From Syntrophorhabdus sp. (lineage in GTDB: Bacteria; Desulfobacterota; BSN033; UBA1163), in assembly GCA_020724025.1 (NCBI GenBank), contig DYHU01000001.1, positions 7,117 through 71,116 on the forward strand: DNA of 64,000 nucleotides, in the 5' to 3' direction. Under the pieces are notes generated by a model. The model saw nothing but the letters and a program-made list of their open reading frames with translations, ran no database searches and was not told the DNA's origin. The position numbers were made by a program, and so were the translations under genes. Positions 18,871 through 38,737 of the stretch are shown in pieces. The stretch's first letter is position 1. Each line of letters opens with the position of its first letter.

Positions 18871-18877
18871 TTACCCT

Positions 18878-20324: not shown

Positions 20325-20332
20325 TAGTTCAA

Positions 20333-20829: not shown

Positions 20830-21801
20830 ATGAAGATTTTGGTGATCGGTTCGGAAGGCAATATTGGCAGGCCCCTTGTCAGATACCTGAAGGGCTGCGG
20901 GCACCGTGTCCTTTGCGCGGATATTCAAAACAAGTATGGTCCGGATTACTTCCAGACCGATATCGTCCATCCCAATGATCTCTATCCCATCGCCGTTAAA
21001 GAAAAACCAGAGGTTATTTATAACCTTGCCGCGATGGTTTCCCGTGTCACCTGTGAGGCCTCTCCGCACATGACGATCGACCGCAATCTGGGTGGAACCA
21101 ACAATGTCATTCAACTGGCAAAGTTAGTTGGCGCCAGATTGATCGTTTTTTCAACCTCGGAAGTTTATGGAAACCAGGGGGGAGTCCAATCAGAGGAATC
21201 GACCGCATTGAAGCCTAATAACCGATATGCCCTCTCCAAGCTATTGTGCGAGGAGCTAACGAAATATGAGGTAGAATATGGCGGCCTCCATGCCGTTATT
21301 GTCCGGCCGTTCATGTTTTACCATGAGCGGGAAGAGATAGGCTCTCATCGAAGCGCCATGATCAGGTTTGCCGATGATCTATATCATCATCGAAAGATCG
21401 AGTTGCATAAAGGAAGCAGGCGGAGCTGGCTTCACATGGACGATGCGGTCGTGGCCCTGGAAAGGGTGATCCATCTCAACCAGTTTGCCATCCTCAATAT
21501 CGCTCATCCCCGTATCGTTGAGATGGAGTTTTTAGCGCGGCTGTTTTGTGAGATCTATGGAAGGGATTATGGCACGTATGTCGAAGAGATCCCTCTCCCT
21601 CCCCAGATGACCTTGGAGAAGTTCCCCGATGTGAAGCGGCAGAGGAAATTACTGGGCTTTGCGCCGAAGATCGATATCGAGGAGGGGATTCAGAGGGTTG
21701 CGGAGAGAATCATCTGTGATCATTCGGGTGTGACGGAAAGAGCTTATCAAAAGGATTTCAATCCCCCCGGAAGGACTCTTGCGGGCAATATCCCTGCCTG
21801 A
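20830..21801 (+). CDS. NAD-dependent sugar epimerase/dehydratase
   Basis: A 323-residue extended short-chain dehydrogenase. The nucleotide-binding motif GSEGNIG is near residue 8, the STSEVYG serine strand is in the middle, and the catalytic pair is Y133/K137 (YALSK). The C-terminal substrate half contains RRSWLHMDDAV. Such enzymes act on nucleotide-activated sugars (epimerisation, dehydration or reduction). It opens the accessory island 89 bp after the MerR-like gene. The exact substrate cannot be read from sequence. Confidence 0.88.
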   Translation: MKILVIGSEGNIGRPLVRYLKGCGHRVLCADIQNKYGPDYFQTDIVHPNDLYPIAVKEKPEVIYNLAAMVSRVTCEASPHMTIDRNLGGTNNVIQLAKLVGARLIVFSTSEVYGNQGGVQSEESTALKPNNRYALSKLLCEELTKYEVEYGGLHAVIVRPFMFYHEREEIGSHRSAMIRFADDLYHHRKIELHKGSRRSWLHMDDAVVALERVIHLNQFAILNIAHPRIVEMEFLARLFCEIYGRDYGTYVEEIPLPPQMTLEKFPDVKRQRKLLGFAPKIDIEEGIQRVAERIICDHSGVTERAYQKDFNPPGRTLAGNIPA

Positions 21802-21809
21802 GGAACGAT

Positions 21810-23081
21810 ATGCTTAAGATCATCCTGATCAATCCCCCCAGTCCCTATTTAGCCAATGATGCGGCCTACCCTCCCACGGGCCTTCTTTACCTGGCCGCCG
21901 CGATGGAGAAGACCGGGCATGAAGTTTCCCTGGTCGACCTCACCGGAAACCCGGATTGGCGTTCCGTGGTCCGCGGACTCGATGCCGATCTCTTCGGCAT
22001 CACCTGTGTCACCCCCAATGTTCCTCTCGTCAGAGAGGTATCCTATCTCCTTCCATCAGGCAAACCGGTGATCCTCGGCGGCGCCCATCCCACTTTCTTG
22101 CCAAAGGATGCCCTGAAGCAGGTGCGCTGTGATGCGATTGTTAAGGGAGAGGGGGAGGAGGTCATCGAGACCGTTCTAAACGATTTGAAGAAAGGGAATC
22201 TCAAAAAGATTTATGAGGGAGGGATTGCCAGGGTGAAAGCGATCCCAAAACCTTCGAGGCATCTCGTCGATCTCCACCGGTATACTCCCGGGGGTGAGAA
22301 GACGACCCCCATTTATACCTCGAGAGGGTGTCCATTCAAGTGCAGTTTCTGTTCGATGATCTCAGGAAAGACTTACCGGGTCCTGGCTCTTGAGCGCGTT
22401 CTGTCCGAGATCGAAGACGTCATGAATGATGGGTTCAGCCATATCCTCTTGAGCGATGATAACATCCTGGTTCAGCCGGAGAGGTTTCGCACCCTCATGA
22501 AGGCCATCAAACCCTTTGGGTTAAGGTTCCGGTTGAATCAAGACGCCAGAGCCATTGATGGGAAGATGATGAGATTGGCCAGGGAGGCGGGATGCTGCGA
22601 AATCAGTTTTGGGATAGAGACGGGCAGCCAGAAGATGCTGGACCTCATGAATAAACAGACGACGGTAGAGGCGAACCGGAAAGCGATTCTCGTGGCCAAG
22701 GAGAATGATATTAAGACCAAGGCCTATTTCATCGTTAACTTCCCCGGGGAGGACGACTCCACGGTAGACGACACATTGGAGTTTACAAGGCAGGTGAAAC
22801 CGGATAAATGGCTATTATCCTCCTTTGCCCCCCTTCCCGGAAGTGATACTTTCAAAAACCCGAAGAAATACGGCATCACATGGGTCAGCCCCCGCTGGGA
22901 AGATTATTACCTGGCCGGGAAAGAGGAAAAACTTGCCCCCTGTTTTACGACGAAGGAGTTATCCTCCGAGAGGCAGTTCGACCTTCACCGAAAAATGTTT
23001 CACTCCCTTCAGGAGATCCTGGACCCACTCCCGGGCATAACCCCATCAAGGAGTGATGCACCATGCCATCAAAGGTCATAA
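21810..23081 (+). CDS. B12-binding-type radical SAM protein
   Basis: A 423-residue protein. The N-terminal Rossmann-like domain of the cobalamin-binding class (IILINPPSP, then GITCVTPNVP and ILGGAHPTF) is followed by a radical SAM domain. The cluster motif is C174, C178, C181 (RGCPFKCSFC), with a later GIETGSQKMLDLMNKQ segment. Members of this class often methylate unactivated carbons or modify sugars and lipids; the reaction here is unknown. It starts 8 bp after the epimerase and overlaps the SGNH gene by 19 bp. Confidence 0.88.
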   Translation: MLKIILINPPSPYLANDAAYPPTGLLYLAAAMEKTGHEVSLVDLTGNPDWRSVVRGLDADLFGITCVTPNVPLVREVSYLLPSGKPVILGGAHPTFLPKDALKQVRCDAIVKGEGEEVIETVLNDLKKGNLKKIYEGGIARVKAIPKPSRHLVDLHRYTPGGEKTTPIYTSRGCPFKCSFCSMISGKTYRVLALERVLSEIEDVMNDGFSHILLSDDNILVQPERFRTLMKAIKPFGLRFRLNQDARAIDGKMMRLAREAGCCEISFGIETGSQKMLDLMNKQTTVEANRKAILVAKENDIKTKAYFIVNFPGEDDSTVDDTLEFTRQVKPDKWLLSSFAPLPGSDTFKNPKKYGITWVSPRWEDYYLAGKEEKLAPCFTTKELSSERQFDLHRKMFHSLQEILDPLPGITPSRSDAPCHQRS

Positions 23082-23722
23082 GGGTATGTTATTTCGGTGA
23101 TTCGATTACCTATGGATTGGGCCATGACCACAAAGGGGTCGATGTGACCAGACGATGGACCGCGCTGGTGGATGAGACCCTAAAGGAATATGAGCGAAGA
23201 GGCATCTTCATTTACAGCCTCAATCTCGGGGAGAATGGAAACACGACACGAAACGGACTGGAGCGACTTCCGGAGGCCTATGCCTTTAAGCCCGATCTCG
23301 TCACGGTTCAATTCGGAATGAACGATTGCAACTACTGGCTTTCGGATGGAGGCCTACCCAGGGTCAATCCTGTCTCTTTCAAATTCAACCTCAAGGAATT
23401 GATCGAAAAACTCTTCGCCACAAAGGTCGGAAGGGTCCTGTTGAGCACCAATCACCTCATCCCCGTGGAGAAGAAGATGCTGAATGGCAAGTCCTATAGT
23501 GAGAATAACCAGTTCTACAACCAGATCATTCGAGAGGTCGCGGAAGAAACCGGAGCGACATTGTGCGATATGGAAATCCTGTTGGCGGATTCGAGCCAAA
23601 ACAAAGCGCTCTTTCTTGACGAAAACGGCAGGTGGATTCACCTCTCTGAACTGGGAAATCGGCGGTATGCCGAAAAGATCCTTCCTTTTATTGAAAAAGA
23701 ACTCAGGGGGATGGCGGGATGA
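23063..23722 (+). CDS. SGNH/GDSL-type hydrolase
   Basis: A 219-residue protein with the block I motif FGDSITYGLG (nucleophile S14), a block III-like FGMNDCNYW and a C-terminal H in WIHLSELGNRRYAEKI. This places it in the SGNH hydrolase fold, which includes sugar acetyl-esterases. There is no signal peptide, so it probably acts in the cytoplasm. Overlaps with both neighbours (19 bp before, 4 bp after) make it an integral part of the island's transcript. A role in trimming or transferring an acyl group on a sugar is inference. Confidence 0.86.
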   Translation: MPSKVIRVCYFGDSITYGLGHDHKGVDVTRRWTALVDETLKEYERRGIFIYSLNLGENGNTTRNGLERLPEAYAFKPDLVTVQFGMNDCNYWLSDGGLPRVNPVSFKFNLKELIEKLFATKVGRVLLSTNHLIPVEKKMLNGKSYSENNQFYNQIIREVAEETGATLCDMEILLADSSQNKALFLDENGRWIHLSELGNRRYAEKILPFIEKELRGMAG

Positions 23723-24561
23723 AAAGGGTCCTGTTTCTCTGCGATCGACCTCTGGGAATCCGCTGCTTGAGGTTCCTGTTGACAACGGATTGCCGGATTT
23801 GCGGCGTCGTGTCGAGAGAAGGGGGAGAGATCAACTGGTGGGGAAGATCGAGCGTGAGGAATTTATGCGAAGAGCAGAGTATCGCCTGGCATGACCTCTC
23901 GAGCCCCCTGATCGAGATTGCAGAGGAATGCCAGCCGGACCTGATCATCTCCGTCCTGTATCCGAAGATCGTGGCCAAGGATCTGGTCAGGAAGATTCCC
24001 TGCTTCAACCTCCACTGCGCCCCTTTGCCCGAATACGGGGGATGGAATTCAACGCTGTGGGCCATTTTAAACGGAGAGGAGACCTTTGGGGCAACACTTC
24101 ATGAGATGTCAGAAAGGCCGGACGAGGGAGACCTCATCCAAAAGGGATCCTTCCGAATCCCGCGGCAGGTGACGAACGTCGAATTATATCAAATGTCCCA
24201 TGAGGACGGGTACAGGATCTTCTGCCAAAATGGACCCCTGCTAATTTCAGGGAGATACTCGTCCACGCCCCAAGTCGGACCCAGACGGTACTATGGGCGA
24301 AAGGATCTTCCACCACGGGAGGTTTGCCCCGGATGGGAGGGAGGGAGGATCGCCACCTATGCCAGGGCCTTTTATTTCCCCCCCTTTGAGCCGGCGTACA
24401 TGATGATTAGGGGACAAAAAATAAGGCTGATCCCGGAGATGCGATATGATCCCCGGGAGAGGCTCAATGGCGATGAAATATTATTCGAGGAGGGAAGTGC
24501 GCGACCCTCTGACGAGGGGTTTGAAAGTGAAAGAAGAGAAAGGGACAGGGCGAGAGGCTAA
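23719..24561 (+). CDS. Formyltransferase-family protein (sugar N-formylation likely)
   Basis: A 280-residue protein with the formyl-transfer fold of methionyl-tRNA formyltransferase. The catalytic Asn/His are in CFNLHCAPLPEYGGWNS (N97, H99) and the Asp in DEGD (D138). It lacks the tRNA-binding C-terminal domain pattern, and its genome context is carbohydrate-related. Related small enzymes N-formylate amino sugars on nucleotide carriers using formyl-tetrahydrofolate. The start overlaps the SGNH stop as ATGA. Sugar substrate and acceptor are inferred. Confidence 0.85.
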   Translation: MKRVLFLCDRPLGIRCLRFLLTTDCRICGVVSREGGEINWWGRSSVRNLCEEQSIAWHDLSSPLIEIAEECQPDLIISVLYPKIVAKDLVRKIPCFNLHCAPLPEYGGWNSTLWAILNGEETFGATLHEMSERPDEGDLIQKGSFRIPRQVTNVELYQMSHEDGYRIFCQNGPLLISGRYSSTPQVGPRRYYGRKDLPPREVCPGWEGGRIATYARAFYFPPFEPAYMMIRGQKIRLIPEMRYDPRERLNGDEILFEEGSARPSDEGFESERRERDRARG

Positions 24562-24568
24562 GTTGAAC

Positions 24569-27500
24569 ATGGAACCGAAAGGGAATGGATCACATCGACC
24601 CGTTTCAGTCATCATCACCTGCTACAATTACGGGCGCTATTTGAAAGAGTGCATCGAAAGCGTCCTGGCTCAAACCGTTCAGGGATTGGAGATCATTGTG
24701 GTCAACGACGGCTCCACGGATGAGACGGAGACCATCTGCAAGTCTTTCGGGGAGAGCATCCGATATCACGCTCAACCCAATCGGGGACTGGCAGAGGCTT
24801 TAAATAATGGAATCGAAATGAGCCACGGCGACTTCTTCTATTACCTCTCTGCGGACGACAAGCTCTTTCCGGAGACGATTGAGAGACAGTTGGAAGTCAT
24901 GGAAGAGGACGAAACCTGTGCGGTGGTATGCGGAAACGCCAAGATGATCGACGAGAAAGGGAGATTCATCGGAGATAATATCAACCCCTTTCCCGAGAAG
25001 AACGGACTGCTCAGAATGTTGGGAACTCCCAACCTCCATGACGGAAGCCTCCTTTTCAGACGGGCCTCTCTGGAGAAAATCAATGCCTTATATTTCGACC
25101 CCAGCCTCGGGAACTACCATATCTATCATTACAAATGTTTCCTCCTGGCCAGAGGGTTTAGGATCCGATATCTAAATGAATTTTTGGTCTACCAGCGGGT
25201 TCACCCCTTCAACCTGAGCCATCCCCAGCACGCCAAGAGGATGATCGCGGGTTACGAAATATTGCGAAAAGAGATGAGGAAGCACGTCACCGTCTTTGAT
25301 CTCTTTGAGGGAGTGGACAGAGAAGATCCGGAAGAGGTCGCTAAAGCCTATTACAAACTGGGCACGCTCTTCTTTCTGTTCGGACAATACGGGATTGCCT
25401 ACGATGATTTTAAGAGGGCATCCGATTTGGCAAAGGACATCTTCGAGAAGGAGGTGGATATCTCGGAATTGAACTTCGGCCAATATGTCTTTCCCCTTCC
25501 GGTGAAAAACATCCAGGTCCAGGACGAAAAGGCGAGGAGGGCCGTCGAAAGGGAGAAAGGGCCGGAGGCCAAAGAAATCATCGCGTATCTCGAGCGGGGA
25601 AATGTCGCCAAGGCCTTTTTCGTCTGCAAGGAGAAACTGGAGAGGGAACCGAGCGATTCGGAGGCGAAATACTTATTGGCCAAGACCTATTTGCGACAAC
25701 TCCAGTTTCATGATTCCGCCAACCGATTTCATGAAGTCACGTTGGGATTGCTCAAAGAGGTCCAGGCGGAGGCTCCCCTCCATTCGATCGACCTTTATCT
25801 CTGGCTCGGCTTCTTAGACGAGGAGAGGAGGGACGATTATTTCAATGAGTTATCGAGAAGGATGGGGAGGATGAAGTTATATGATGTGAAAGAGATGGCC
25901 TGGGCAGCCAGCAATGCGAAGGCCAAGGGGAAGACCGAATGGCTCGAAAGGGGGATGGATATCTTCAATCAGTCGGGGTTGACCCCCGGCGCTCTGAAAG
26001 AGGCTAACCCTCCTCCCGTCGATCGATCCTTGAAAAGGAAGAGGGATGGAAGAAAACGGGTCCTTTTGGTGAATCCTCCCCATCGAAGATTCCTGGGATT
26101 AGAGGCGCCTTGTTTTCCCCTGAGCTTTGGATACATGGCCACCCTGATCGAGGAGCAGGGATATGAAGTCGGGATCTATGATGCCGAATACGATCGGCGT
26201 TTAGTGGGAAAAACCGGAAGCTATGAGTACGCCCTGACGCATCAGAGCCGGATCAATGAGGCGTTGAAGGATGGAAAACATATTGTATGGTCCGAGATCG
26301 GAGAGATGATCCAGCGCTTCGCCCCGGACATCGTCGGCATCTCCGCCATGAGCAATAAATACCCGATGGTGGAACGGATTGCCGAAATTACGAAATCCAT
26401 TGATCAGGCCATCCCTGTTGTCATCGGAGGGCATCACCCCTCGATTTATGGCGGGAAGTTGATCCGGAATCGAAATATCGACTTTGTGGTTCGGGGAGAA
26501 GGGGAGATGACGATGAAGGAGTTGGTCCATCGATTCTTTGCTCCCCGGAAGGATCTTTCCGAGGTCAAGGGGCTCCTCTATAAGGAGAGGGGTGAAATCC
26601 GGACTAATCCGCCCAGAGAACTGATTCAGGACCTAGACCTTCTCCCGATCCCGAACCGAAACCTCATCCTCAACGACCATTATGTCTCGGGCAATAATGT
26701 GATGACCGCTCGGGGATGCCCTTTCCATTGCAGTTATTGCGGCGCCAGGGTCATCTGGGAGAGGAAGGTGAGGCGGCGAAGCGTTGAAAGAGTCCTTAAG
26801 GAGATTCGTGGATTGATCCAGAGGTCGGGATCGCGATCCATCTCCTTCTGGGACGACTCGTTCACCTGTGATCGCCACTATCTCGGGGAGTTGATGAAGG
26901 GCCTCTGGGCGATCGATGGTCTTACCTTCAGCTGCATCACGCGTTTGGACCTTGTGGACAAAGAGATATTAAACCTCCTCAGGGAGGCGGGATGCAATCA
27001 GATCCTGTTCGGGATCGAATCCGGAAGCGACCGCATCCTGAAATCGATCCAGAAAGGGATGAGCCGGGACCTCATCAGGAAGAAAGTGGAGGAGGTCAAT
27101 TCGTTCGGCATTCCGTGGCTTGGATTTTTCATCATGGGGTATCCTGGAGAGACGAAAGAGGATATCCTTGAAACCTTACACTTCATGAAGGAACTCGATC
27201 CCCCTGCCGCAGAGATCAATCTCTTCAACCCCTTGCCAGGAACTCCCATCTGGAACGAACTGGAGGGGAAGGGACTGGTCGATGGAGACATGGATTTTTC
27301 CCAATATTCCCAGTCGAGTCTTAAAAATTATTTTCTCAGCGGTTTGAGCCAGGAAGAATTTGAAGGGCTTGCTCTCAGGATGACCCAGGCCTTTGATGAG
27401 CATAATCAGCGAAAGCAGGACGAGGCAAAGTGTGTTTCAGGAGTTAAGAAGATCGAGACCGCCACCAGCCCAATCCAGAAAGGGGAGAAGATTTCCTCGA

Positions 27501-30500
27501 TCCAGCCGATGTCAGCCCCCGGTTTCACACCTATCCTTCCGAAGCAGGTCCATTTCCTGATGATCGACAAATGCAATGCTAAGTGCATCATGTGCGGAGG
27601 AGATTACTATCACAGCAGGAGCGGACGGATGATCACTCTTGAGACCTTCAAACAGATGGCCTCCAACCTCCGCCTCGAACATTTCAACAGCCTTGTGCTC
27701 TCAGGGGCCGGCGATCCGTTATTGAATCCCTGGCTGATCCCGATCATCGAATATGTCCATACCTCCTATCCTCAGGTGGCCATAGCGGTCACGACCAACG
27801 GGATCGCCCTCTCGGCGGCGCTGGCCGAGACCCTTTTAGCGTGCCGAATCGACTCGATCAATTTCTCCATCAACGCTGCGAGCCCCGATGTCTATAAAAG
27901 GGTGATGCAGGTCGACTGCTTTGACCGGGTCTGCAGAAATGCAAGAGAGTTCGTCCAACTGAGGAACAGCCGATCCTTGAAAACGAGGGTCCAATTCTCC
28001 ATGGCCCTTCATCGACTCAATATTGGAGACTTGCCCCGGCTGGTCGAGATCGGTCGTGAGATCGGAATCGACAGCATCAATGTCATGTACTGCCGTTTCT
28101 ATCCCGAAAGGATCAGGCATCTCAATATCGACCGCGAAGAAGATCGGCTCCTGGATCACGAATCCCTCTTCTACCATCAGGAGCTGTCGGACCAATGGGT
28201 TGAGAAGGCAAAGGAACTTGCCAACCGATACGGCATCTCATTCTCCCATGAGCCCCTTTTCAGAGAGAGGGCAAAGGCCCAACCCTGCCGGTGGCCTTTC
28301 TCGGAGATCATGATCGGTTTTGATGGCGAGATCTATCCCTGCGGAGGAGCGGAGGTCCACTTCAGAGAAAAGGTCGAGAGAGGGCTTTACCATTTTGGGA
28401 ATGCCTTGAAAGAATCGATTGAGAGCTTCTGGAATGGAGAAGATTACAGGCTCCTGCGCCTCTCCTGTCAGATGGAAGGCCGGGGTCCGGTCTCCGAATG
28501 CGAACGCTGCGCCAACCGGATAAATTCCAACGAAAAGAGGGCTCACCTCATGGATTGGGATGACCCGGGTGAATCCAAGGATGAACATGGAAAGGAAAGG
28601 GTTGCCCGGATCGGGGACGAGGAGACCGGACAAAGGGGTCCGCTCGTTTCAGTTATCGTGCCGACTCATAACCGGCCGGAGATGCTGACGGAGGCCTTAA
28701 GAAGCATTCTCGATCAGACTTACCCGAACTATGAAATCATCGTCGTCAATGATGCGGGGACCGATGTTGAGAACGTGGTGATGCCTTTCAATCAGGCCCA
28801 AAGGGTGACCTATGTGAAGCATGGCCGAAACCTCGGACTGGCGGCCGCTCGGAACACGGGCCTCAAATTGGCAAGGGGGAAATATATCGCCTACCTTGAC
28901 GATGACGATCTCTACTATCCTGATCATCTGGAGACGTTGGTCCACGGACTCCTGGCAAGCGGATTTAAAGTGGCCTACACGGACGCCTATCGGGCCCATC
29001 AGAAACGGGAGGGAGGGAGGTATGTCATCACACACCGGGATGTCCCTTATTCCTTTGACTTCGATGGGGACCGGATGTTGGTTGGAAATTTCATTCCCGT
29101 CCTCTGTGTCATGCATGAAAGGTCGTGCCTCGATGAAGTCGGAGGATTCGATGAAGAGCTGTCCTCTCATGAGGATTGGGATCTCTGGATCCGGGTCTCC
29201 CGGAAGCACCCATTCCTCCATCTGAAGAAGATTACCTGTGAATTCAGTTGGCGGGAGGATGGGACGACCATGACCTCCGGCCGAAAAGAGGACTACCTCG
29301 GAACGAGGGAGCGCATTTATGAGAAATATGGCAAAGAGGTCGCTCATAAGCCTGATGTCCGGCAGGCCCAGCAGAGAAACCTCGCCCACTATCGGCAGGA
29401 GGTCTCCCTCCTGAAATCGAAGGATGACCGGAAGGCCCTGATCGAAAAAGGTTTTGAGGGAATGAACGCGGAAGAGGCCTACCGGGCCGTTCAAAAAATA
29501 GTTGAGGAGGGTAAAGGGGAAGAAGCTCTTTCAGTCCTTGAGACCTTTCTCCGCCACGATCCCCATCATGCCCTTGCCCATAACGACTCAGGGGTTCTCT
29601 ATTTCGAAAGGGGAAGAAAGGAAGAAGCGCTTTTTCACCTCAGGAAGGCTTTTGAACTCGATCCGAAGAACCCGGACATTCTTCATAACCTGGGTGATCT
29701 CTATGTCGATTTGGGCCAGTTCGATGAAGGAGCAAAAACTTACCAAAAGATCCTTTCGGAAAAGCCCGAAGACGCGGAGACGCTCCTGAAACTCAGGGAC
29801 TTATACGGCCACACAGGTCATCATGAGGAAGCTGTCCTCTATTCGGAAAGGATTTTAAAGGTGGATCGCGAGAAAGGGGCAATGAAAGGGGACGCTTCGA
29901 TCCATGGACAAACGGATCAACCCCTTCGAAATGGTGAAGATACCGGGAGGGAAGGGGAGGTGAGTGTTTCCATCATCATCCCTGTTTTTAATCAGGTGGA
30001 ATACACCCGCAAATGCCTCGAAAGGCTCTATGAGATTGGATCCCTGAAATATCGATTCGAAGTCATCGTCGTGGACAATAGCTCGACGGATGGGACCGAA
30101 GAATTTCTCCGGCAGGCGGTTGGCCGATACCCGAACCTGTCCTGGATCCGAAATAAAGAGAACCTTCGCTTTGCAAGGGCCTGTAATCAGGGAGCCCGAA
30201 AATCGAGGGGGAAGTATCTCGTCTTTCTCAACAATGACACAGAACCCCTTCCTGGTTGGCTGGAGGCCGGGATCGATCGCCTTGAAAGCGACGAGGGGAT
30301 TGGCATTGTGGGCGCGAAGCTCCTCTATCCCGATCAATCGATTCAACATTGCGGGATCGAATTCATGCGGAATGCTCGCCATGACTATGCCGTCTGGCCT
30401 CTCCATCGATTCCGGCATGCCCATTTCGAGGATCCGAGGGTGAACAGGCCGGAAGAGGTGCAGGCGGTCACCGCGGCTTGCCTCTTCATCGAACGTCAAC

Positions 30501-32713
30501 TCTTCGAGGAGGTGGCAGGGATCACAGAAGATTACGGGATGTATTTCGAAGATACCGATCTCTGTTTTAAGGTTCGGCAGAGAGGGAAGAAGGTTTTTTA
30601 TGAGCCCAAATGCGTCCTCATCCATCATGAGGGGAAATCGAGTCCAAATCAGGCCATCATCGATGCCTTCAATTCGAAGGCGGCGGTTCTCTTTTATCGA
30701 AGATGGTCCGACGAGGTCGTGAAGCTCGATGTTGAGAACCTGATATCGAAAATAGAGGGTAAGTACATCCATCTGCGACAGGAGATTTTACCCATACCGG
30801 AGGATGGACCCTCAACGGCCACCCGCTTAGAAAGCATCTTATGGCATCTGACAAAGATCTTCCAGTCCATGGGTCCCTTTTATGCCCATTTTGGAGGGGC
30901 CGGAGACGCTCTTCTTCTGCTTTCCACCTTCTACGATGAAAAGCCGGAGCAGACCGTGGTCAGCATCCCGAACTCCCCGGAGATGATGAAGAGTTTCTTC
31001 GAGTCCTTTCCGCTCCTGAAACGGGTCTATTTCATCCCCTTTCCGAAGAATTACCAGAACCACCTTCTCCTCCGGAGACTCTTTCGTATTTTGAAAAACT
31101 TCAAAGGGATGGGAGTGATCCCTGATCCGGAGAGCGACTATTTTAAGGAATGGAATAAGACGCTAAACATCTTTGAGAAATATAAGATCGTCAAACATCC
31201 CCGCTGGATGAACCGGTTTCGATCCGAAAAGTGTCAGGAATGCCAGGTCACCCTTGCCCCCAGGGGAAGCCTCAGAGGGATGGTGGGAAGCAAACAGAAC
31301 ATGATCAACCCCGTGGACTGGCAGCCCCTGATCACTTTTCTCAATGAAAGAAATATCCATCCCATCCTGTTAGGGACGCCGGACGAAGCTCCACTCTATC
31401 CCGCCGCCGGTCAATGCATCGACAAGAGAAGTTTTTCCTTTGAAGAGCAGATGAAGTTGATCGCATCAAGCGACCTTTTCATCGGCGCCGATTCATGGGG
31501 GAAGACCTTCTCAGCCCTTGCAGGGGTGAGGACGATCGTCTTCCACTCCATGCGAGGTGAGGATTTAAGAGAATGGAAAGACCCTTCCGACCATGTATTT
31601 TTAGATCCCTGGGAAGAGATCACCGTTGTCAAAGATCTGAGTGAACTTAAAAATGCGTATGACTCCCTCTTTCGGAGAGATGAAGAAAAACCGGCCCACA
31701 CTCTTCTCCAAGGCAGATCTTCTGGCCCCTCTTCCCACTCCAACGGACATTTTTACATCCAGAGGAATGAAGGGCTGGGAGATGTCCTGATGGCCCTCCC
31801 GTCCGCAAGGGCGCTGAAGCATTCCCATCCCGAAAGCAAAGTGTGCTTTATCACGGAGAAGAGATATGCCAAGGTAGTGGAGGCCAATCCTTATGTCGAT
31901 CGGGTGATCGTGGCAGGCCAGGGGGATCGAAATGAGTTGACCTCAGGGAAGTTCTGGGATCTGAATCCTGCGAGGTTTGGGATAGGAGAGACCCATGAGG
32001 TCGATGCGTTCCTGAAGGAGATTGAAGTAGAGATACCGGATTCGATGAAGGAGATCGCCTTAAAGATACCGAGGAAGACCCACCGGAGGGTGGAACAATT
32101 GCTGCAAAAGACGGATATCCGGAAGAGGGGGAGGAAGATTGTCCTGATCCACCCGGCCAGAGGAGATATGAACCGGACATGGCCTTCCGCGAATTGGAGC
32201 GGGCTCAGCGAGCTGTTTATCAAAAAGGGTTATGGAGTGGCGGTTGTGGGAAACAACTCAAGCGATCCGGCCAGGGGGGTGAGCAGGGTGATGGCACAGG
32301 GCGCGATTCACCTGGTCGATCAACTGACGCCTCTTGAATTTGTGAGCCTTTGCCAGAGGGCTGACCTTCTGGTCACGACCGATAGTGGACCGGTTCAACT
32401 TGCCGGAGGAAGTGACATTGCCATCGCAGGCATCTATACCGTCATTCCCGGCCGATGTCGTCTTCCCTATCGACACGGAAAACCGATGTGGAAGGCCCTC
32501 TCGATTGAACCGAAATGTGGATGCGCAGGGTGTTATCGTTATATGCAGGACGAAAAATATTTCGGCCCGGTGAGAGCAGCCCTGCAAGACGGTTCCCTGA
32601 CCCCCATAAAATTATTTTCAGAATGGTGCGTCAATGAGGAGAAGTATGCATGCCTCTTTAAACATATTACTCCCGAAAGGGTGTTTGAGATGTCTGAGGG
32701 ACTGCTCCATTAA
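24569..32713 (+). CDS. Giant multidomain glycosyltransferase/radical SAM protein
   Basis: One uninterrupted 2,714-residue frame. Order: GT2 domain 1 (about 11-245, VSVIITCYNYG, acidic D96/D97); helical TPR-like linker (255-495); B12-binding plus radical SAM domain (497-945; C717, C721, C724); second radical SAM domain with C1002, C1006, C1009 and a cysteine-rich SPASM-like tail to about 1320; GT2 domain 2 (1358-1608; YLDDDD from D1444); TPRs (1621-1770); GT2 domain 3 (1799-2050; NNDTEP, D1890); a GT9-like domain (2100-2370); and a heptosyltransferase-like GT9 domain (2394-2714, RNEGLGDVLMALPSARAL). No signal peptide or membrane segment is evident. An earlier in-frame ATG at 24446 would overlap the previous gene by 116 bp; the ATG at 24569, 8 bp after its stop, is preferred. 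Probably builds or modifies the flagellin glycan. Confidence 0.9.
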   Translation: MEPKGNGSHRPVSVIITCYNYGRYLKECIESVLAQTVQGLEIIVVNDGSTDETETICKSFGESIRYHAQPNRGLAEALNNGIEMSHGDFFYYLSADDKLFPETIERQLEVMEEDETCAVVCGNAKMIDEKGRFIGDNINPFPEKNGLLRMLGTPNLHDGSLLFRRASLEKINALYFDPSLGNYHIYHYKCFLLARGFRIRYLNEFLVYQRVHPFNLSHPQHAKRMIAGYEILRKEMRKHVTVFDLFEGVDREDPEEVAKAYYKLGTLFFLFGQYGIAYDDFKRASDLAKDIFEKEVDISELNFGQYVFPLPVKNIQVQDEKARRAVEREKGPEAKEIIAYLERGNVAKAFFVCKEKLEREPSDSEAKYLLAKTYLRQLQFHDSANRFHEVTLGLLKEVQAEAPLHSIDLYLWLGFLDEERRDDYFNELSRRMGRMKLYDVKEMAWAASNAKAKGKTEWLERGMDIFNQSGLTPGALKEANPPPVDRSLKRKRDGRKRVLLVNPPHRRFLGLEAPCFPLSFGYMATLIEEQGYEVGIYDAEYDRRLVGKTGSYEYALTHQSRINEALKDGKHIVWSEIGEMIQRFAPDIVGISAMSNKYPMVERIAEITKSIDQAIPVVIGGHHPSIYGGKLIRNRNIDFVVRGEGEMTMKELVHRFFAPRKDLSEVKGLLYKERGEIRTNPPRELIQDLDLLPIPNRNLILNDHYVSGNNVMTARGCPFHCSYCGARVIWERKVRRRSVERVLKEIRGLIQRSGSRSISFWDDSFTCDRHYLGELMKGLWAIDGLTFSCITRLDLVDKEILNLLREAGCNQILFGIESGSDRILKSIQKGMSRDLIRKKVEEVNSFGIPWLGFFIMGYPGETKEDILETLHFMKELDPPAAEINLFNPLPGTPIWNELEGKGLVDGDMDFSQYSQSSLKNYFLSGLSQEEFEGLALRMTQAFDEHNQRKQDEAKCVSGVKKIETATSPIQKGEKISSIQPMSAPGFTPILPKQVHFLMIDKCNAKCIMCGGDYYHSRSGRMITLETFKQMASNLRLEHFNSLVLSGAGDPLLNPWLIPIIEYVHTSYPQVAIAVTTNGIALSAALAETLLACRIDSINFSINAASPDVYKRVMQVDCFDRVCRNAREFVQLRNSRSLKTRVQFSMALHRLNIGDLPRLVEIGREIGIDSINVMYCRFYPERIRHLNIDREEDRLLDHESLFYHQELSDQWVEKAKELANRYGISFSHEPLFRERAKAQPCRWPFSEIMIGFDGEIYPCGGAEVHFREKVERGLYHFGNALKESIESFWNGEDYRLLRLSCQMEGRGPVSECERCANRINSNEKRAHLMDWDDPGESKDEHGKERVARIGDEETGQRGPLVSVIVPTHNRPEMLTEALRSILDQTYPNYEIIVVNDAGTDVENVVMPFNQAQRVTYVKHGRNLGLAAARNTGLKLARGKYIAYLDDDDLYYPDHLETLVHGLLASGFKVAYTDAYRAHQKREGGRYVITHRDVPYSFDFDGDRMLVGNFIPVLCVMHERSCLDEVGGFDEELSSHEDWDLWIRVSRKHPFLHLKKITCEFSWREDGTTMTSGRKEDYLGTRERIYEKYGKEVAHKPDVRQAQQRNLAHYRQEVSLLKSKDDRKALIEKGFEGMNAEEAYRAVQKIVEEGKGEEALSVLETFLRHDPHHALAHNDSGVLYFERGRKEEALFHLRKAFELDPKNPDILHNLGDLYVDLGQFDEGAKTYQKILSEKPEDAETLLKLRDLYGHTGHHEEAVLYSERILKVDREKGAMKGDASIHGQTDQPLRNGEDTGREGEVSVSIIIPVFNQVEYTRKCLERLYEIGSLKYRFEVIVVDNSSTDGTEEFLRQAVGRYPNLSWIRNKENLRFARACNQGARKSRGKYLVFLNNDTEPLPGWLEAGIDRLESDEGIGIVGAKLLYPDQSIQHCGIEFMRNARHDYAVWPLHRFRHAHFEDPRVNRPEEVQAVTAACLFIERQLFEEVAGITEDYGMYFEDTDLCFKVRQRGKKVFYEPKCVLIHHEGKSSPNQAIIDAFNSKAAVLFYRRWSDEVVKLDVENLISKIEGKYIHLRQEILPIPEDGPSTATRLESILWHLTKIFQSMGPFYAHFGGAGDALLLLSTFYDEKPEQTVVSIPNSPEMMKSFFESFPLLKRVYFIPFPKNYQNHLLLRRLFRILKNFKGMGVIPDPESDYFKEWNKTLNIFEKYKIVKHPRWMNRFRSEKCQECQVTLAPRGSLRGMVGSKQNMINPVDWQPLITFLNERNIHPILLGTPDEAPLYPAAGQCIDKRSFSFEEQMKLIASSDLFIGADSWGKTFSALAGVRTIVFHSMRGEDLREWKDPSDHVFLDPWEEITVVKDLSELKNAYDSLFRRDEEKPAHTLLQGRSSGPSSHSNGHFYIQRNEGLGDVLMALPSARALKHSHPESKVCFITEKRYAKVVEANPYVDRVIVAGQGDRNELTSGKFWDLNPARFGIGETHEVDAFLKEIEVEIPDSMKEIALKIPRKTHRRVEQLLQKTDIRKRGRKIVLIHPARGDMNRTWPSANWSGLSELFIKKGYGVAVVGNNSSDPARGVSRVMAQGAIHLVDQLTPLEFVSLCQRADLLVTTDSGPVQLAGGSDIAIAGIYTVIPGRCRLPYRHGKPMWKALSIEPKCGCAGCYRYMQDEKYFGPVRAALQDGSLTPIKLFSEWCVNEEKYACLFKHITPERVFEMSEGLLH

Positions 32714-32755
32714 AGACAAACGGTCATCTTCATGCTCCTGAAAGGAGGAATATCT

Positions 32756-34546
32756 TTGTCACGACGGCACCATTCAAAGAAGAAAGGATGCTCTAAACCC
32801 ATGGCCGCGGAAAGATCCAAACTCTCACTCTGTATGATTGTGAGGAATGAGGCCATGAATTTAAGAGATTGCATCGGCCCAATGATACCGGTGGCGGATG
32901 AAATCATCGTGGTGGATACCGGATCGACAGACAACACGAAAGAGATTGCCATGGAGTTGGGGGCAAAGGTTTTCGATTTTCCGTGGTGTGATGACTTCAG
33001 CGCGGCCCGGAATGAGTCGATCCGGCAGGCGGCCGGAGATTACATTATGTGGCTCGATGCGGATGACCGGGTCGATGAGACAGAGGTAAGAAAGATAGAA
33101 CTCCTTAAAAAGTCTTTTCCCCGCAAGAAGGATGAAGCCTACGATGCCATCGTCACCAGTCAATCTCCCATCGAAGGAAAGACTCACTTTTATCAGATGA
33201 GAATCTTTCCGAGAGTGAAGGGAGGTCTCTTTGAGGGGAGGGTCCACGAGCAGGTCGTCTACAACCTTCAGCGTTTAGGCATCCAACGAATCCCTATGGA
33301 GATCCGCATCCGTCATTCGGGATACGGGGATTTTAAAACCATCCAACAGAAGTCGGAGAGGAACTTAAGCATCCTCCGGAAAGAGCTGGAGGCGAATCCG
33401 GAAAATCTTTTGCTTCATTTCTATGCAGGCCGCACCCTGGCCGGTATGGCCCGACAAGTGGAGGCCGTGTTTCACATGAGGAGAATCACATCGGATGAGA
33501 GGATCAGGAGGGATGAGAGAGCCTTTTATCTGGAGGCCTCCCTGCTCTTAGGGAAATACTATGTCGAACTAAAATTATACGATGAGGCCCTGACCATCTT
33601 TAGACACCTCTCCATGGAGGATCCGGAGAATGGCCTGGTCCATTTCAGCCTCGGGGAGACATTGTTTCAGGTCAGGGATTATCCAGGGGCGATCGAGGCG
33701 TTGCGCCGCTCTCTTCTTTATCCGATAGAGGTCAGTCACCTTCCCGTGAATATCGAACGGCTCCATTATCATCAACATCACACCCTCGCCCAGTGCCATT
33801 TGGAAACAGGGGAGGGCCGCCTTGCGATCGATGTCCTTCTAAAATTTCTGGATCGATATCCGGATCATTCTCAAACCCTCAAGACCCTCGGCCTTTTAAG
33901 CCTCAAGCACCAAAGGTTTGAAGAGGCGGCCGAATACTATGAAAGGGCCGTCCAGGGAGGGGAGGATTCCGATGAAGATTATGCCAACATGGGATTGGTT
34001 TTTCGGAAACTCGGCCGATTCGATGAAGCGGAGAGGAACTGGAACAGGGCCCTGCAGGTCAACCCGCAGAGGGTTGAGGCTCTCATCAACCTCGGCCATC
34101 TTCATCATCAGCAGAAGGAATATCCAAAAGCCTTAGAACGGTTTAAACAGGCCCTCGATATCGATTCGAATTTGCCCGATGTGAGATTGGCATTGAGCGA
34201 CATCTATTTCAGGTTCCATGATCTCGAAAATCTTGTTCGAGAGTGTGACGCCCTCATGAAAGAGTTAAATCTCCCCAGGGAGATCACCCTGAATGGGTAT
34301 GATGAATTGAGCGCCCTGTATGAAAGGATCGGAGAAATCCTTTCATACCAGGGGCGGGCGGATCTGGCCCTGATGGCCCATCATGTCTCCTTCATGATTC
34401 ATCCCTCCAGAGCCAACCTGGACAGAATCATCTCCATGGCGAGTGTCTCACAGGGGTTGGAGGCTTCCATGGAAAAGGTTCAGGAGGCCCTGGATTTTCA
34501 CAAGGCCGGCCTGTCCCTCTCTTTTGCTGGAAATTCCTGTAGTTAA
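32756..34546 (+). CDS. GT2 glycosyltransferase with TPR repeats
   Basis: A 596-residue protein. The N-terminal GT2 domain (about 20-250) has LCMIVRNEAMNLRDC, VVDTGSTDNT and the metal-binding LDADD (D101, D103), similar to the SunS-like class that glycosylates proteins directly. TPR helices follow from about 250 to 560 (for example YANMGLVFRKLGRFDEAERN). The start chosen is a TTG with AAAGGAGG seven bases upstream; ATGs at 32732 and 32801 are alternatives. It ends 333 bp before fliC, making it the best candidate for attaching glycan to flagellin (inference). Confidence 0.88.
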   Translation: MSRRHHSKKKGCSKPMAAERSKLSLCMIVRNEAMNLRDCIGPMIPVADEIIVVDTGSTDNTKEIAMELGAKVFDFPWCDDFSAARNESIRQAAGDYIMWLDADDRVDETEVRKIELLKKSFPRKKDEAYDAIVTSQSPIEGKTHFYQMRIFPRVKGGLFEGRVHEQVVYNLQRLGIQRIPMEIRIRHSGYGDFKTIQQKSERNLSILRKELEANPENLLLHFYAGRTLAGMARQVEAVFHMRRITSDERIRRDERAFYLEASLLLGKYYVELKLYDEALTIFRHLSMEDPENGLVHFSLGETLFQVRDYPGAIEALRRSLLYPIEVSHLPVNIERLHYHQHHTLAQCHLETGEGRLAIDVLLKFLDRYPDHSQTLKTLGLLSLKHQRFEEAAEYYERAVQGGEDSDEDYANMGLVFRKLGRFDEAERNWNRALQVNPQRVEALINLGHLHHQQKEYPKALERFKQALDIDSNLPDVRLALSDIYFRFHDLENLVRECDALMKELNLPREITLNGYDELSALYERIGEILSYQGRADLALMAHHVSFMIHPSRANLDRIISMASVSQGLEASMEKVQEALDFHKAGLSLSFAGNSCS

Positions 34547-34587
34547 AGGCGTTCGCCCTGAAAGGACGGGTCAAAATGCTAAACCAC

Positions 34588-34615
34588 TCAAGTTTTTCCC
34601 TCCACCCGTCGATAG
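34588..34615 (+). promoter_or_regulatory. Sigma-28 promoter for fliC
   Basis: TCAAGTTT-N12-GTCGATAG closely matches TAAAGTTT-N11-GCCGATAA. It lies 41 bp after the GT2-TPR stop. It would give a long leader of about 255 nt before fliC, containing several hairpins and the CsrA-type sites. The 34547-34878 gap holds this promoter, a CCCGCCTTTGAAGGCGGG hairpin near 34720-34739 and an ACCCT...AGGGT hairpin near 34762-34805, and no gene. Confidence 0.7.
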
Positions 34616-34878: not shown

Positions 34879-35712
34879 ATGGCACTCAGAATTAACACCA
34901 ATATTGCGGCTTTAAACGCACACCGTCAGCTTGCTAACACCGATGCAAGACTGTCGGTATCCATGGAGAGGCTCTCATCGGGCTACCGGATCAATAAGGC
35001 CAAAGACGATGTCGCGGGACTTACGATTGCCAACAAATTCAGGTTGGAAGTGAGGGGATTGCGCATGGCCCAGCAGAATATCGCTCAAGGCACGGCCACG
35101 TTGCAGGTGGCAGAGGGAGGAACTAATCAGATTGAAGTGATTATCGAACGTCTGAAAGAGTTGGCCACAACCGCCTCCTCCGACAATAGCGACAGCAATT
35201 CAAGAACCCGGCTCAATTCGGAAGCATCGTCTCTCCTCTCCGAAATCGATCGAATTGCTAACGATACAAAATACGGGAGCACCTCATTGCTCAGCGCTGC
35301 CATCAACTTCACATTCCAGGTCGGGTCCGGCAACACCTCCGCAGAAGATAGAATTTCGGTGACGACTTCTGATGGATTACTGTCCAATGATCTGGGCTTG
35401 AACGGTCTCAGTTTATCCACACTGGCGAGCGCTCAAGCGGCTCTCACCTCGATTGACAATTCTCTTACCTCATTGAGCGTGATCCATGGCGAACTCGGCG
35501 CGGCCCAGAGCCGTCTGGAATTCGCTTCAGCCAACCTGGCCATTTCTATTGAAAATCTCGCAGCCTCCGAATCGACCATTCGGGATGTGGATATGGCCTA
35601 TGAGATGGTCAGTTTCACAAAGAATCAGATTCTGCTCCAGGCAGGCACTGCCATGCTTGCCCAGGCCAACATGGCGCCCCAGGGTATCCTTGCCTTACTC
35701 GGGGGTCGTTAA
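34879..35712 (+). CDS. fliC: Flagellin FliC
   Basis: A 277-residue flagellin with both conserved ends: MALRINTNIAALNAHRQL and RLSSGYRINKAKDDVAGLTI at the N-terminus, and FASANLAISIENLAASES through MLAQANMAPQGILALLGG at the C-terminus. The variable surface region is short (about residues 140-190) and rich in Ser/Thr, offering O-glycosylation sites. There are no cysteines. An AAGGAGG ribosome binding site lies 8 bp before the ATG. The adjoining glycosyltransferase island suggests it is modified. Confidence 0.97.
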   Translation: MALRINTNIAALNAHRQLANTDARLSVSMERLSSGYRINKAKDDVAGLTIANKFRLEVRGLRMAQQNIAQGTATLQVAEGGTNQIEVIIERLKELATTASSDNSDSNSRTRLNSEASSLLSEIDRIANDTKYGSTSLLSAAINFTFQVGSGNTSAEDRISVTTSDGLLSNDLGLNGLSLSTLASAQAALTSIDNSLTSLSVIHGELGAAQSRLEFASANLAISIENLAASESTIRDVDMAYEMVSFTKNQILLQAGTAMLAQANMAPQGILALLGGR

Positions 35713-36275: not shown

Positions 36276-36385
36276 TTACAATCCATGAACTTTCTACAAT
36301 CCCTGTACTCCTTTTTCTACTTTGAAATAAAGTTGTCTTCCCTGAGAATGAGGATGGTTTGCCTCAGACTAAGCAGGAGGTTGAG

Positions 36386-38737
36386 ATGGCTGCAACCAGT
36401 GTAGTCAGCGGTCTTGCAAGCGGCCTGGACTGGCGGAAGATCATCGACCAATTGAGACAGATCGAATATAAAAAAATCGAAATGGTCGAAGGAAGGAAAA
36501 AGGTCCAAGAGGAGAGGACCAGCGCCTGGCAGAGCCTCAATACTAAATTACTCTCTTTTAAAAACTCAGCAGGCGCCTTAAACAGGACCGCCTCTTTCAA
36601 CCTTTATACCACCACGCTCTCTTCCAACACGACGGCGGAGGCCGAAGATATCCTTTCCGTGACTGCGAGCACGGATGGTTCTCCGGGGACTTATAAGATT
36701 ATTGTCACGTCTCTGGCCAGCGCCCAGAAGCTTTCTTCAACCAGCTATGCCAGCCAGACCACAGCGCTCAATCTTTCCGGCGATATCATCGTTGGGGGGC
36801 GAACAGTCAAAATTACTACGACGGATAGCCTATCCAGTCTTCGGGACAAGATCAATGCTGTCAATTCAGGGACGAATGCCTCCAAGGTGACTGCCTCCAT
36901 TGTCAACTACGGGACGAGCGGCTATCGGCTCATCCTGACCAGTGATGCGGAAGGGTCTTCGGGGGTCGGCCTCCTTAATGGCGGGGCGTCTGATCTCGTA
37001 AGATCGCTCGGTTTTGTCGATGCCTCCGCAAAAACAGCCAAGAATGCCATCACAGGCGGCCACAAAAGCGATCCCTTTTCTGCGGCGGATAAGAAAGTGG
37101 GAGGGACGGATCTGCTCAATCTGACCAGCCCCCAGCGCGGTAATGTGACGATCACCATTAACGGCACTGCCAGATCTGTGGCGATCGATCTGGCAACCGA
37201 CTCTTTAAATACCATCCGGGACGCCATCAATACAGCCTTCACCGGTGTGTTTACTTCCAATCCAGCCACCGTCGTAAGTGAAACGGTTAGTGGAACAACA
37301 AAATACAGGCTACTGATCGAGGGGAATACGGTTACTTATACCGATGCGAACAATGTCCTGGAAACGCTCGGCATTCTCAAAAGGGCAGGTGCCTCAGACG
37401 AGAGAGGTATGACCGGCGACGTGGCCAATACATCGGCCGGAACGGCCATTACCTCCTCCACGCTGATTAAGAATATCGACGGGTATAATAACTATGCCTC
37501 TGGGGATACCATCACATTGACCGGAACCAGCACAGCCAATGCAGCAGTCAATAGCGTATTTACCATTGCCGATGCGAGCACGGTCGGAGACCTTTTAACC
37601 GCCATTCAGACAGCCTATGGGGAGGTGACAGCCTCGGTCACAGCAGATGGAAAGATCCAGATCGTGGACAATAAAATTGGAGATACCTATCTGGCTGTTA
37701 CCCTGACTCCCAGCAAGATCAGCCTCAAGTTTGATGCGGATGGAAATTTCGGGGCCATTTCAACCATCCGGTCGCGGCAGATTCAAGCCGGTGCGAATGC
37801 AAATATCTCTGTGGATGGAGTGATCATGACTCCATCCACCAATACACCGAATGATATCATCACCGGGGTTACCCTCAATCTGAAAAAGGCTGCTGCGGAT
37901 ACGACCGTCACCCTCACGGTGGGGAGAGATTACGGCGGCGTGAAGAAAAAAATTGAAGAGTTTGTGACGGCCTATAATGACGCCATGGATACCATCAATG
38001 CCCAGTTGGCTTACAATTCGGAGTCACAGAAACCAGGGGGTCCTCTCTTTGGGGACGCCACACTGCGGACGATCAAATCGAATCTTACCAGAATCGTTTT
38101 GAACCAGGTCTCAGGAGTATCGGCCAATTTTTCAACCCTCGGACTGATCGGCATCAGTATCGGGACGGATAGTAGGTTGACCATCGATGACAGCAAGCTT
38201 CAAGATTATTTTGAGACTAACTTTGATGACGTCAAAAAACTGTTTGTCGCCGATTGGTCATCCACCGACAGCAATTTGAGCTATCTCTATCATACGATCG
38301 ATACCCAGGCAGGTACTTACAACGTTCAAATCACGGGCGTCGATCCCGTGGCAGGCTATTTTGTGACATCAGGGGATGCCACTGGAGAGGGTGAGTACCT
38401 GAAAGGCATATCCGGAAACGCCAAAGGCCTTGTCGTCCGGTACTCTGGGACGGCCACAGGGTCAGTGGGGAGTTTTTCCCTCACCTATGGCATTGCCGAG
38501 CTCCTGGATCGTTCCCTCTATTATATTACGGATTCAGTCGATGGTACGATCACCCACAAAAAGGAGACGATCCAGGATACGATCGATCACTTGAAGGATG
38601 ATATTGAGACCATGGAAGCTCGACTGGACCAGAGGATGGCTGAATTGGAGCGTCGATTCGTCGCCATGGAGACGGCTCTTAGCACATTGCAGAGCCAGAC
38701 GGGCTGGCTCACGGGCCAGATCAATATGATCAGCTAA
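36386..38737 (+). CDS. fliD: Flagellar filament cap protein FliD
   Basis: A 783-residue protein, longer than the usual 450-700. The N-terminus (SGLASGLDWRKIIDQLRQIE) and the coiled-coil C-terminus (ETMEARLDQRMAELERRFVAME through LQSQTGWLTGQI) are typical of FliD. The middle carries repeated flagellin-insert-like modules (FTIADASTVGDLLTAIQTAYGEVTASV is one; ATDSLNTIRDAINTAF another). It caps the filament and folds flagellin. The ATG at 36386 follows AGGAGG; a TTG at 36359 is less likely. Confidence 0.94.
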   Translation: MAATSVVSGLASGLDWRKIIDQLRQIEYKKIEMVEGRKKVQEERTSAWQSLNTKLLSFKNSAGALNRTASFNLYTTTLSSNTTAEAEDILSVTASTDGSPGTYKIIVTSLASAQKLSSTSYASQTTALNLSGDIIVGGRTVKITTTDSLSSLRDKINAVNSGTNASKVTASIVNYGTSGYRLILTSDAEGSSGVGLLNGGASDLVRSLGFVDASAKTAKNAITGGHKSDPFSAADKKVGGTDLLNLTSPQRGNVTITINGTARSVAIDLATDSLNTIRDAINTAFTGVFTSNPATVVSETVSGTTKYRLLIEGNTVTYTDANNVLETLGILKRAGASDERGMTGDVANTSAGTAITSSTLIKNIDGYNNYASGDTITLTGTSTANAAVNSVFTIADASTVGDLLTAIQTAYGEVTASVTADGKIQIVDNKIGDTYLAVTLTPSKISLKFDADGNFGAISTIRSRQIQAGANANISVDGVIMTPSTNTPNDIITGVTLNLKKAAADTTVTLTVGRDYGGVKKKIEEFVTAYNDAMDTINAQLAYNSESQKPGGPLFGDATLRTIKSNLTRIVLNQVSGVSANFSTLGLIGISIGTDSRLTIDDSKLQDYFETNFDDVKKLFVADWSSTDSNLSYLYHTIDTQAGTYNVQITGVDPVAGYFVTSGDATGEGEYLKGISGNAKGLVVRYSGTATGSVGSFSLTYGIAELLDRSLYYITDSVDGTITHKKETIQDTIDHLKDDIETMEARLDQRMAELERRFVAMETALSTLQSQTGWLTGQINMIS

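Follow-up and report, generated by a model that had tools for sequence, protein, structure and literature searches.

A predicted flagellin-glycan megaenzyme with exchangeable modules in a hypervariable flagellar island of Syntrophorhabdus

A giant gene ahead of flagellin

The 64,000-nucleotide stretch analysed here (hereafter the window), from a Syntrophorhabdus sp. contig (NCBI GenBank assembly GCA_020724025.1, contig DYHU01000001.1, positions 7,117 to 71,116 of the forward strand), encodes a protein of 2,714 amino acids (hereafter the giant) which joins GT2, TPR-like, B12-binding radical SAM, SPASM radical SAM, GT2, TPR, GT2, GT9-like and GT9 domains in that order. These carry their family motifs in every case except the first glycosyltransferase domain (GT2-a), the gene stands before a GT2-TPR gene and the flagellar genes fliC and fliD, and the locus is a mosaic. 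We hold, with moderate confidence, that the giant is a cytoplasmic megaenzyme for elongation and tailoring of the flagellin O-glycan, which evolves by module exchange within a hypervariable island. The gene and its domains are as follows:

24569..32713, plus strand: giant multidomain enzyme, 2,714 amino acids (open frame; full-length relative P0003 at 63%)
24569..25348, plus strand: GT2 domain a (GT2-a), residues 1-260 (Pfam PF00535 at 13-171; alignment of four proteins)
25349..26023, plus strand: TPR-like helical linker, residues 261-485 (TPR matches, all below cut-off)
26036..27448, plus strand: B12-binding radical SAM domain, residues 490-960, CX3CX2C at 717-724 (PF02310, PF04055)
27521..28573, plus strand: SPASM/twitch-like radical SAM domain, residues 985-1335, CX3CX2C at 1002-1009 (PF04055, PF13186; model and fold search)
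28616..29398, plus strand: GT2 domain b (GT2-b), residues 1350-1610, DDDD and HEDWD motifs (Pfam)
29486..29908, plus strand: TPR block, residues 1640-1780 (PF14559, PF13432 and others)
29951..30703, plus strand: GT2 domain c (GT2-c), residues 1795-2045 (Pfam; grouped in a tree with GT2 domains preceding a GT9-like domain)
30716..31618, plus strand: GT9-like GT-B domain, residues 2050-2350 (no Pfam family)
31721..32710, plus strand: GT9 domain, residues 2385-2714 (PF01075)

An earlier note on this DNA had described a single unbroken frame of 2,714 codons with this domain order, and the open frame, the Pfam matches and the relative P0003 all bear this out. A search with the whole protein found 304 relatives, 120 of which were listed; one of these (P0002, 100% identical) was taken as the window's own copy, leaving 119 others, to which domain layouts were assigned at strict scores, with GTa, GTb and GTc denoting the types of the three GT2 domains. 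P0003 (2,675 amino acids) is 63% identical end to end in an unbroken alignment and has the identical domain order; taken singly, the seven catalytic domains are 53–78% identical, and the two TPR stretches 59% and 40%. Codon GC content is lowest at position 2 in every block, and highest at position 3 in eight of the nine full 300-codon blocks. The frame is probably a real gene: because P0003 shares its order and near-equal length and the coding signal is continuous, an assembly join is unlikely, and we set an assembly artefact aside on these grounds. The source is probably one metagenome contig with no reads to map, which leaves some room for a join or frame error, yet P0003, the coding signal running through the frame, and two proteins on other contigs that keep the GTc-GT9-like-GT9 order (P0155, 83% identical over the GT9-like domain, and P0156, 71%) make such an error very improbable. 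P0156 starts inside the tail of GT2-b, as either a split or a cut gene would.

Catalytic motifs

Judged from the alignments, catalytic motifs are intact in all domains of the giant except GT2-a. GT2-b and GT2-c have the Pfam match, the DXD-type motif and the acidic acceptor-site motif of CAZy family GT2 (the fold was checked for GT2-b only). In GT2-b, D1444-D1446 (DDD) are kept in 109 of 109 copies, E1535 in 108 of 109 and D1536 in 109 of 109, and the nearest folds are K4CP, Leptospira 6p61 and AvpGT; in GT2-c, NDT is kept in 61–62 of 62 copies and the two residues of ED in 62 and 61 of 62. GT2-a keeps SADD and still matches the Pfam GT2 family strongly, but YHxYH replaces the acidic pair of GT2-b and GT2-c in all four aligned proteins (window included), and the domain may be inactive or serve binding only. 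A possibly non-catalytic GT2 domain is retained in these four proteins.

Both radical SAM domains combine CX3CX2C with the Radical_SAM profile, and for the SPASM domain the fold was checked as well. The B12-type domain has an N-terminal B12-binding domain (PF02310, 64 bits) and keeps CX3CX2C in five of five copies; its best PDB sequence matches are 9ccb and then 6fd2, and no curated B12/radical SAM model (HpnJ, ApyD, BchE, PhpK and others) reached its cut-off among the best 25 of 117 families. In the SPASM domain, CX3CX2C is conserved in 76–77 of 78 copies and four further cysteines (1240, 1258, 1311 and 1314) in 77–78 of 78; these four probably hold one cluster, as in a twitch domain, and presumably resemble those of BtrN. 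The fold search returned SuiB (25.7), SkfB (24.4), BlsE (24.4) and DesII (24.0), with anSME also a neighbour; these act on peptides and sugars alike, other families may have been missed, and the fold leaves the chemistry of the domain undecided.

At the C-terminal end, the GT9 domain matches PF01075 at 42.7 bits (cut-off 22) and keeps RTWP and DSGP in 13–14 of 14 copies. The GT9-like domain lacks a PF01075 match, by which membership of CAZy GT9 was judged here. Its GGxGDA and GADSW(G/A)K motifs recur across 33 copies, in one of which T replaces the first A. This GT-B family of ~300 amino acids without a Pfam model (window 30,716-31,618) comprised 60 proteins in one search and the 33 motif copies, with P0052 in both; P0203, P0204, P0207 and P0210 carry the domain and have no Pfam domain whatever listed for them.

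A flagellin glycosylation island

The gene order is flgK-flgL-island-giant-GT2-TPR-fliC-fliD, and the features around the giant, some of them matched in two related genomes (G480 and G287), are:

15990..18601, plus strand: flgK and flgL, left flank (PF22638 in FlgK and flagellin domains in FlgL; counterparts present in G480 and G287)
18640..19327, plus strand: csrA and fliW, left flank (PF02599, PF02623)
20193..34589, plus strand: hypervariable flagellin-glycan island, 14.4 kb (replaced in G480 between 82–94% identical flanks)
20,333-20,740: MerR-type regulator, left island edge (PF13411)
20830..21801, plus strand: NAD-dependent epimerase/dehydratase (PF01370)
21810..23081, plus strand: separate B12-binding radical SAM protein (PF04055, PF02310)
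23063..23722, plus strand: SGNH/GDSL-type hydrolase or acyl-transfer enzyme (PF13472)
23719..24561, plus strand: formyltransferase (PF00551)
32732..34546, plus strand: GT2-TPR protein, candidate flagellin-initiating transferase by its inferred role (PF00535 and TPR)
34879..35712, plus strand: flagellin gene fliC (PF00669, PF00700)
36359..38737, plus strand: fliD (PF02465, PF07195)

The flank genes flgK, flgL, csrA, fliW, fliC and fliD were all confirmed by Pfam, the role of the GT2-TPR gene being the exception. By position and content the locus is a flagellin glycosylation island, with glycosyltransferase and sugar-modifying genes set among flagellar genes beside flagellin. The earlier note was right about the single protein and its domain order, and its idea that all domains serve one glycan is still plausible, but it had overlooked the position at the flagellin locus; because the gene sits there, that glycan is most likely flagellin's, on positional and comparative grounds. 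Within the plus-strand flagellar run, the minus strand at 19,381-20,135 carries FlgM (PF04316) and a second small open reading frame (ORF) without a Pfam match, and an alpha-glucan phosphorylase (DUF3417 and Phosphorylase) lies near the flagellar genes at 47,312-49,864.

Replacement of the island in a relative

Matching the window DNA to G480 (E ≤ 1e-10, at least 80 bases per match) gave two flanks of 82–94% identity (13,798-20,192 and 34,590-47,141), followed by a piece of 76% identity (47,293-48,213). At the protein level, identity is 93% for FlgK, 94% for FlgL, 86% for FliC, 85% for FliD and 59% for the GT2-TPR protein. Alignment to G480 DNA inside the island is limited to the SPASM-GT2-b region (69.6%), the GT2-TPR gene (68.8%) and 306 bases at the edge (68.0%). 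The G480 island, ~23 kb against 14.4 kb in the window, contains besides its own giant a SIS-HAD fusion, a GHMP kinase and a nucleotidyltransferase, which we take to be a heptose-type set, a DegT aminotransferase and two B12 radical SAM genes. The G480 giant (2,282 amino acids) combines four GT2 stretches with a radical SAM domain, an N-terminally placed methyltransferase domain and a GT1-like domain, and has only SPASM-GT2-TPR-GT2 in common with the window giant; no GT9 was found in it by domain probes or among the best 25 of 34 Pfam families. The MerR-type regulator has a G480 counterpart of just 68% DNA identity. Elsewhere, a ~100-base stretch of the window (40,698-40,798) matches G480 (C288:66,169-66,268, 87%) at another flagellar position, and may belong to a small dispersed repeat.

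Of 17 genomes in the order to which G480 belongs, 5 yielded the GT2-TPR gene, with fliC and then fliD downstream in all five. Both flanks of the flgL-to-fliC slot are visible in G480 and G287 only; in G287 it holds a 1,810-amino-acid ORF (WbsX, three GT2 stretches and TPR) upstream of the GT2-TPR gene. Two genomes show the right side only: G886 has upstream GT2-TPR ORFs of 1,261 and 708 amino acids, and G590 has one close to where its contig begins. The G322 contig begins inside the GT2-TPR gene, so that its upstream side is out of view.

Signs of module exchange

The complete domain order was found in 1 of the 119 listed relatives (P0003). The others have GTa-TPR-B12 radical SAM-SPASM-GTb (2), B12 radical SAM-SPASM-GTb (1), SPASM-GTb (39), SPASM-GTb-GTc (3), GTc-GT9-like-GT9 (13), GTc-GT9-like (11), GTb-GTc-GT9-like (6) or other combinations (43). 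A check proposed in the earlier note, for proteins sharing at least four catalytic domains in the same order, returned P0003 to P0006 among the first 30 matches listed.

The gene is best read as evolving by exchange of blocks (GTa-B12 radical SAM; SPASM-GTb-TPR; GTc-GT9-like-GT9) near linkers. For example, P0004 and P0010, the latter taken as the G480 giant, share 15–30% identity in 20-residue segments over 860-979 and 90–100% in those over 980-1059, the jump coinciding with the point where the SPASM domain begins, after which identity stays at 95–100% per 100 residues to ~2200. A GT2-c tree places the window and P0003 in a clade (support 100/99) of 38 rows, 32 of which precede a GT9-like domain and 6 of which do not, and places the GT2-c domains of P0004 and P0010 in another clade. 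Across relatives, the identities of neighbouring domains are least correlated at the GTb-GTc join (Spearman 0.17, 74 proteins) compared with 0.40–0.62 for the four other joins measured, with kinship uncorrected and the window protein among those compared. This pattern is that of whole-module exchange at linkers, as in modular assembly-line enzymes, with the reservation that its sharpest junction, that of P0004, could be an assembly chimera. Near-identical blocks beside differing remainders in P0115/P0118, P0033/P0038, P0022/P0092 and others were not counted as exchange, truncated contigs being possible there.

Occurrence in other genomes

Few genomes, and scattered ones, carry the SPASM domain: it was found in 0 of 29 genomes (E ≤ 1e-60), 4 of 244 (1e-40), 4 of 395 (1e-50) and 1 of 245 (1e-50), sets which overlap in that G053 is counted twice, giving eight distinct genomes. 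None of the eight fetched SPASM contexts has the complete order, the ORF of G358 being cut off at a contig end, and the GT9-like domain was found in 0 of 395 genomes at E ≤ 1e-60, in a search run without a positive control, whose empty outcome is by itself uninformative. The earlier note had held that glycosyltransferases and radical SAM enzymes are normally separate proteins; this was overstated, as GT2-radical SAM fusions recur and only the complete order is rare. A GT2 Pfam domain also occurs in 22 of 32 proteins (344-1095 amino acids) carrying this SPASM domain, 46 of the 119 relatives listed combine SPASM with the middle GT2 type (GTb), and 11 ORFs in 80 loci retrieved by similarity to the window giant (53 of them at least 20 kb) are radical SAM-glycosyltransferase fusions, the B12-type ones being distant (91–117 bits). 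Two such distant B12 radical SAM-glycosyltransferase fusions, of 3,719 and 1,851 amino acids, lie in L014 (Planctomycetota) and L027 (Nitrospinae), loci which also hold flagellar genes.

In three of the seven genomes checked (G001, G096 and G480), flagellin and the SPASM giant share a contig and lie within 16 kb of each other; G580 has FlhA close to the giant and flagellin on a different contig, G816 likewise has flagellin on a contig other than the giant's, and in two of the seven no flagellin match was found. A SPASM-GT2 giant also occurs in a culturable relative, as P0024 (named Geobacter sp. DSM 9736). Among the 80 fetched loci, 36 contain flagellin (33 of the 53 of at least 20 kb) and 71 an ORF of at least 1,000 amino acids with a GTb-like domain, 34 of the latter also holding fliC. 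Giants of simpler make-up that contain GT2-b-like domains are often found close to flagellin, in Nitrospira among others.

Function and alternatives

We propose that the neighbouring GT2-TPR protein (32,732-34,546) would bind flagellin and attach the first sugar, and that GT2-b, GT2-c, the GT9-like and GT9 domains, perhaps with GT2-a, would extend the chain with more sugars, a heptose possibly among them. The B12 radical SAM domain would methylate or deoxygenate one added sugar or its nucleotide precursor, and the SPASM/twitch-like domain would oxidise, deaminate or epimerise one, chemistry that we infer from family membership and fold similarity (DesII, BlsE and 6fd2 versus SuiB and SkfB). 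The epimerase, the second B12 radical SAM protein and the formyltransferase may supply or finish sugars, and flagellin would be exported after glycosylation. We hypothesise that the domains act in sequence along the chain, like the assembly line suggested in the earlier note. The TPRs, which that note read as spacers, may have other roles as well, the TPR part of FlmG being a flagellin binder (PMC7591256). Block exchange could alter the flagellar glycan in single steps, for which flagellum-binding phages or grazers are a plausible source of selection. A more far-reaching and tentative idea is that the giant is a glycan counterpart of modular megasynthases, in which glycosyltransferase and radical SAM modules would act in order on a flagellin-bound sugar, with radical SAM editing of sugar on the growing glycan, and the glycan type would be switched by module swaps between flgL and fliC.

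Several observations lend themselves to alternative explanations. Of 32 shorter proteins with the SPASM domain, 10 lack GT2 (some of these come from short contigs), the GT9-like domain is spread over 60 proteins of many layouts, and a separate B12 radical SAM gene lies in the same island, with two in that of G480; all this would suit a fused operon, whose domains act singly and have free sugar nucleotides or different glycans as substrates, the fusion fixing expression or stoichiometry with no channelling or order. The same GT2 type nevertheless follows SPASM in 59 of 79 proteins (window included), and the order GTc-GT9-like-GT9 is kept in 15 of the 120 listed proteins (P0002 included), and we regard a fused operon as conceivable but on the unlikely side. 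Were the radical SAM domains instead to modify the flagellin polypeptide (by C-methylation, crosslink or oxidation) whilst the glycosyltransferases glycosylate it, in a combined protein-modification enzyme, the SPASM fold neighbours SuiB, SkfB and anSME, which act on peptides or proteins, would fit, as would B12-domain matches, far below cut-off, to ApyD and methyl-coenzyme M reductase methyltransferase. However, the sugar-acting BlsE and DesII (24.4 and 24.0) come close behind SuiB (25.7) and level with SkfB (24.4), the apramycin enzyme 6fd2 ranks second among the PDB sequence matches to the B12 domain, and no recognition domain for ribosomally synthesised and post-translationally modified peptides (RiPP) appears among the best 25 of 26 Pfam matches, which makes polypeptide modification rather improbable.

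The flagellar position could also be incidental and the product another surface polysaccharide: the glycosyltransferase families are generic, the two SPASM genomes of seven without a flagellin match point this way, and so does G816, with its giant and flagellin on different contigs. Against this, the flgL-to-fliC slot is also used in G480 and G287, flagellin is present in those 36 of 80 loci, and no flippase, polymerase or priming transferase was found in five other island proteins scanned (small ORFs were scanned incompletely), so that we give this explanation slightly less credence still. If the flagellin-glycan megaenzyme is right, giant proteins of exchangeable modules build and edit flagellar sugars in some environmental bacteria and, the modules being exchangeable, the glycan type could therefore change in one recombination step. 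The same slot, with near-identical flanks and swapped modules, would be a direct, countable system for surface-glycan diversification, and the locus family is a source of glycosyltransferase-coupled radical SAM enzymes and of a GT9-like family without a Pfam model.

Comparison with known systems

Among the nearest folds of GT2-b are K4CP (PDB 2z86) and heparosan synthase (8vh7), which are bifunctional polymerases of capsule polysaccharides with two glycosyltransferase domains and are not known to contain a radical SAM domain. DesII and BlsE, by fold, and 6fd2 (presumably AprD4), by sequence, are radical SAM enzymes acting on sugars or sugar nucleotides, like the chemistry proposed for the giant; unlike it they are stand-alone antibiotic enzymes, identity is 14–18% for BlsE and DesII, and the likeness is one of fold or sequence, not of substrate residues. 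Nitrospira and others have ORFs of at least 1,000 amino acids with several glycosyltransferase domains, GTb- or GTc-like and often near fliC, which resemble the giant but, by domain probes, mostly lack radical SAM and GT9.

The type B flagellin GT2-methyltransferase of Clostridioides difficile adds two rhamnoses, with methylation proposed, and its elongation role was demonstrated by mutants and mass spectrometry (PMC5207246). The giant resembles it in uniting GT2 with putative sugar-modifying domains in one protein encoded next to the flagellin gene, and in its predicted task of lengthening an O-linked glycan that another transferase has begun on flagellin. In C. difficile, however, one GT2 is joined to one ordinary SAM methyltransferase (PMC5207246), whilst the giant combines three GT2 with two GT9-type and two radical SAM domains. 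FlmG of Caulobacter, whose TPR part binds flagellin, likewise pairs TPR with a glycosyltransferase and acts on flagellin in the cytoplasm (PMC7591256). With 596 amino acids and one GT-B domain, however, FlmG has its nearer counterpart in the neighbouring GT2-TPR gene and not in the giant (PMC7591256); the FlmG layout of a short protein with N-terminal TPR and C-terminal GT-B is not that of the giant, and the neighbour is GT2-TPR, not TPR-GT-B. Flagellin islands of Enterobacteriaceae are variable and contain aminotransferases, formyltransferases, methyltransferases and glycosyltransferases with methyltransferase domains (PMC4875605), and so resemble the window in having a variable flagellin locus with a formyltransferase and a glycosyltransferase fused to a modifying domain; unlike the window, radical SAM and TPR are unmentioned in the main text there (PMC4875605), and the main text on Geobacillus flagellin islands is also without them (PMC5109656).

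In the open-licence literature, subscription papers being mostly uncovered, we found no description of radical SAM-glycosyltransferase fusions for flagellin or of intragenic module exchange. Because of the C. difficile, Enterobacteriaceae and FlmG precedents, we see the giant as a variation on known flagellin glycosyltransferase fusions: the fusion of a GT2 to a sugar-modifying domain is already known, and what is new here, in our judgement, is the scale, the presence of two radical SAM domains and the module exchange.
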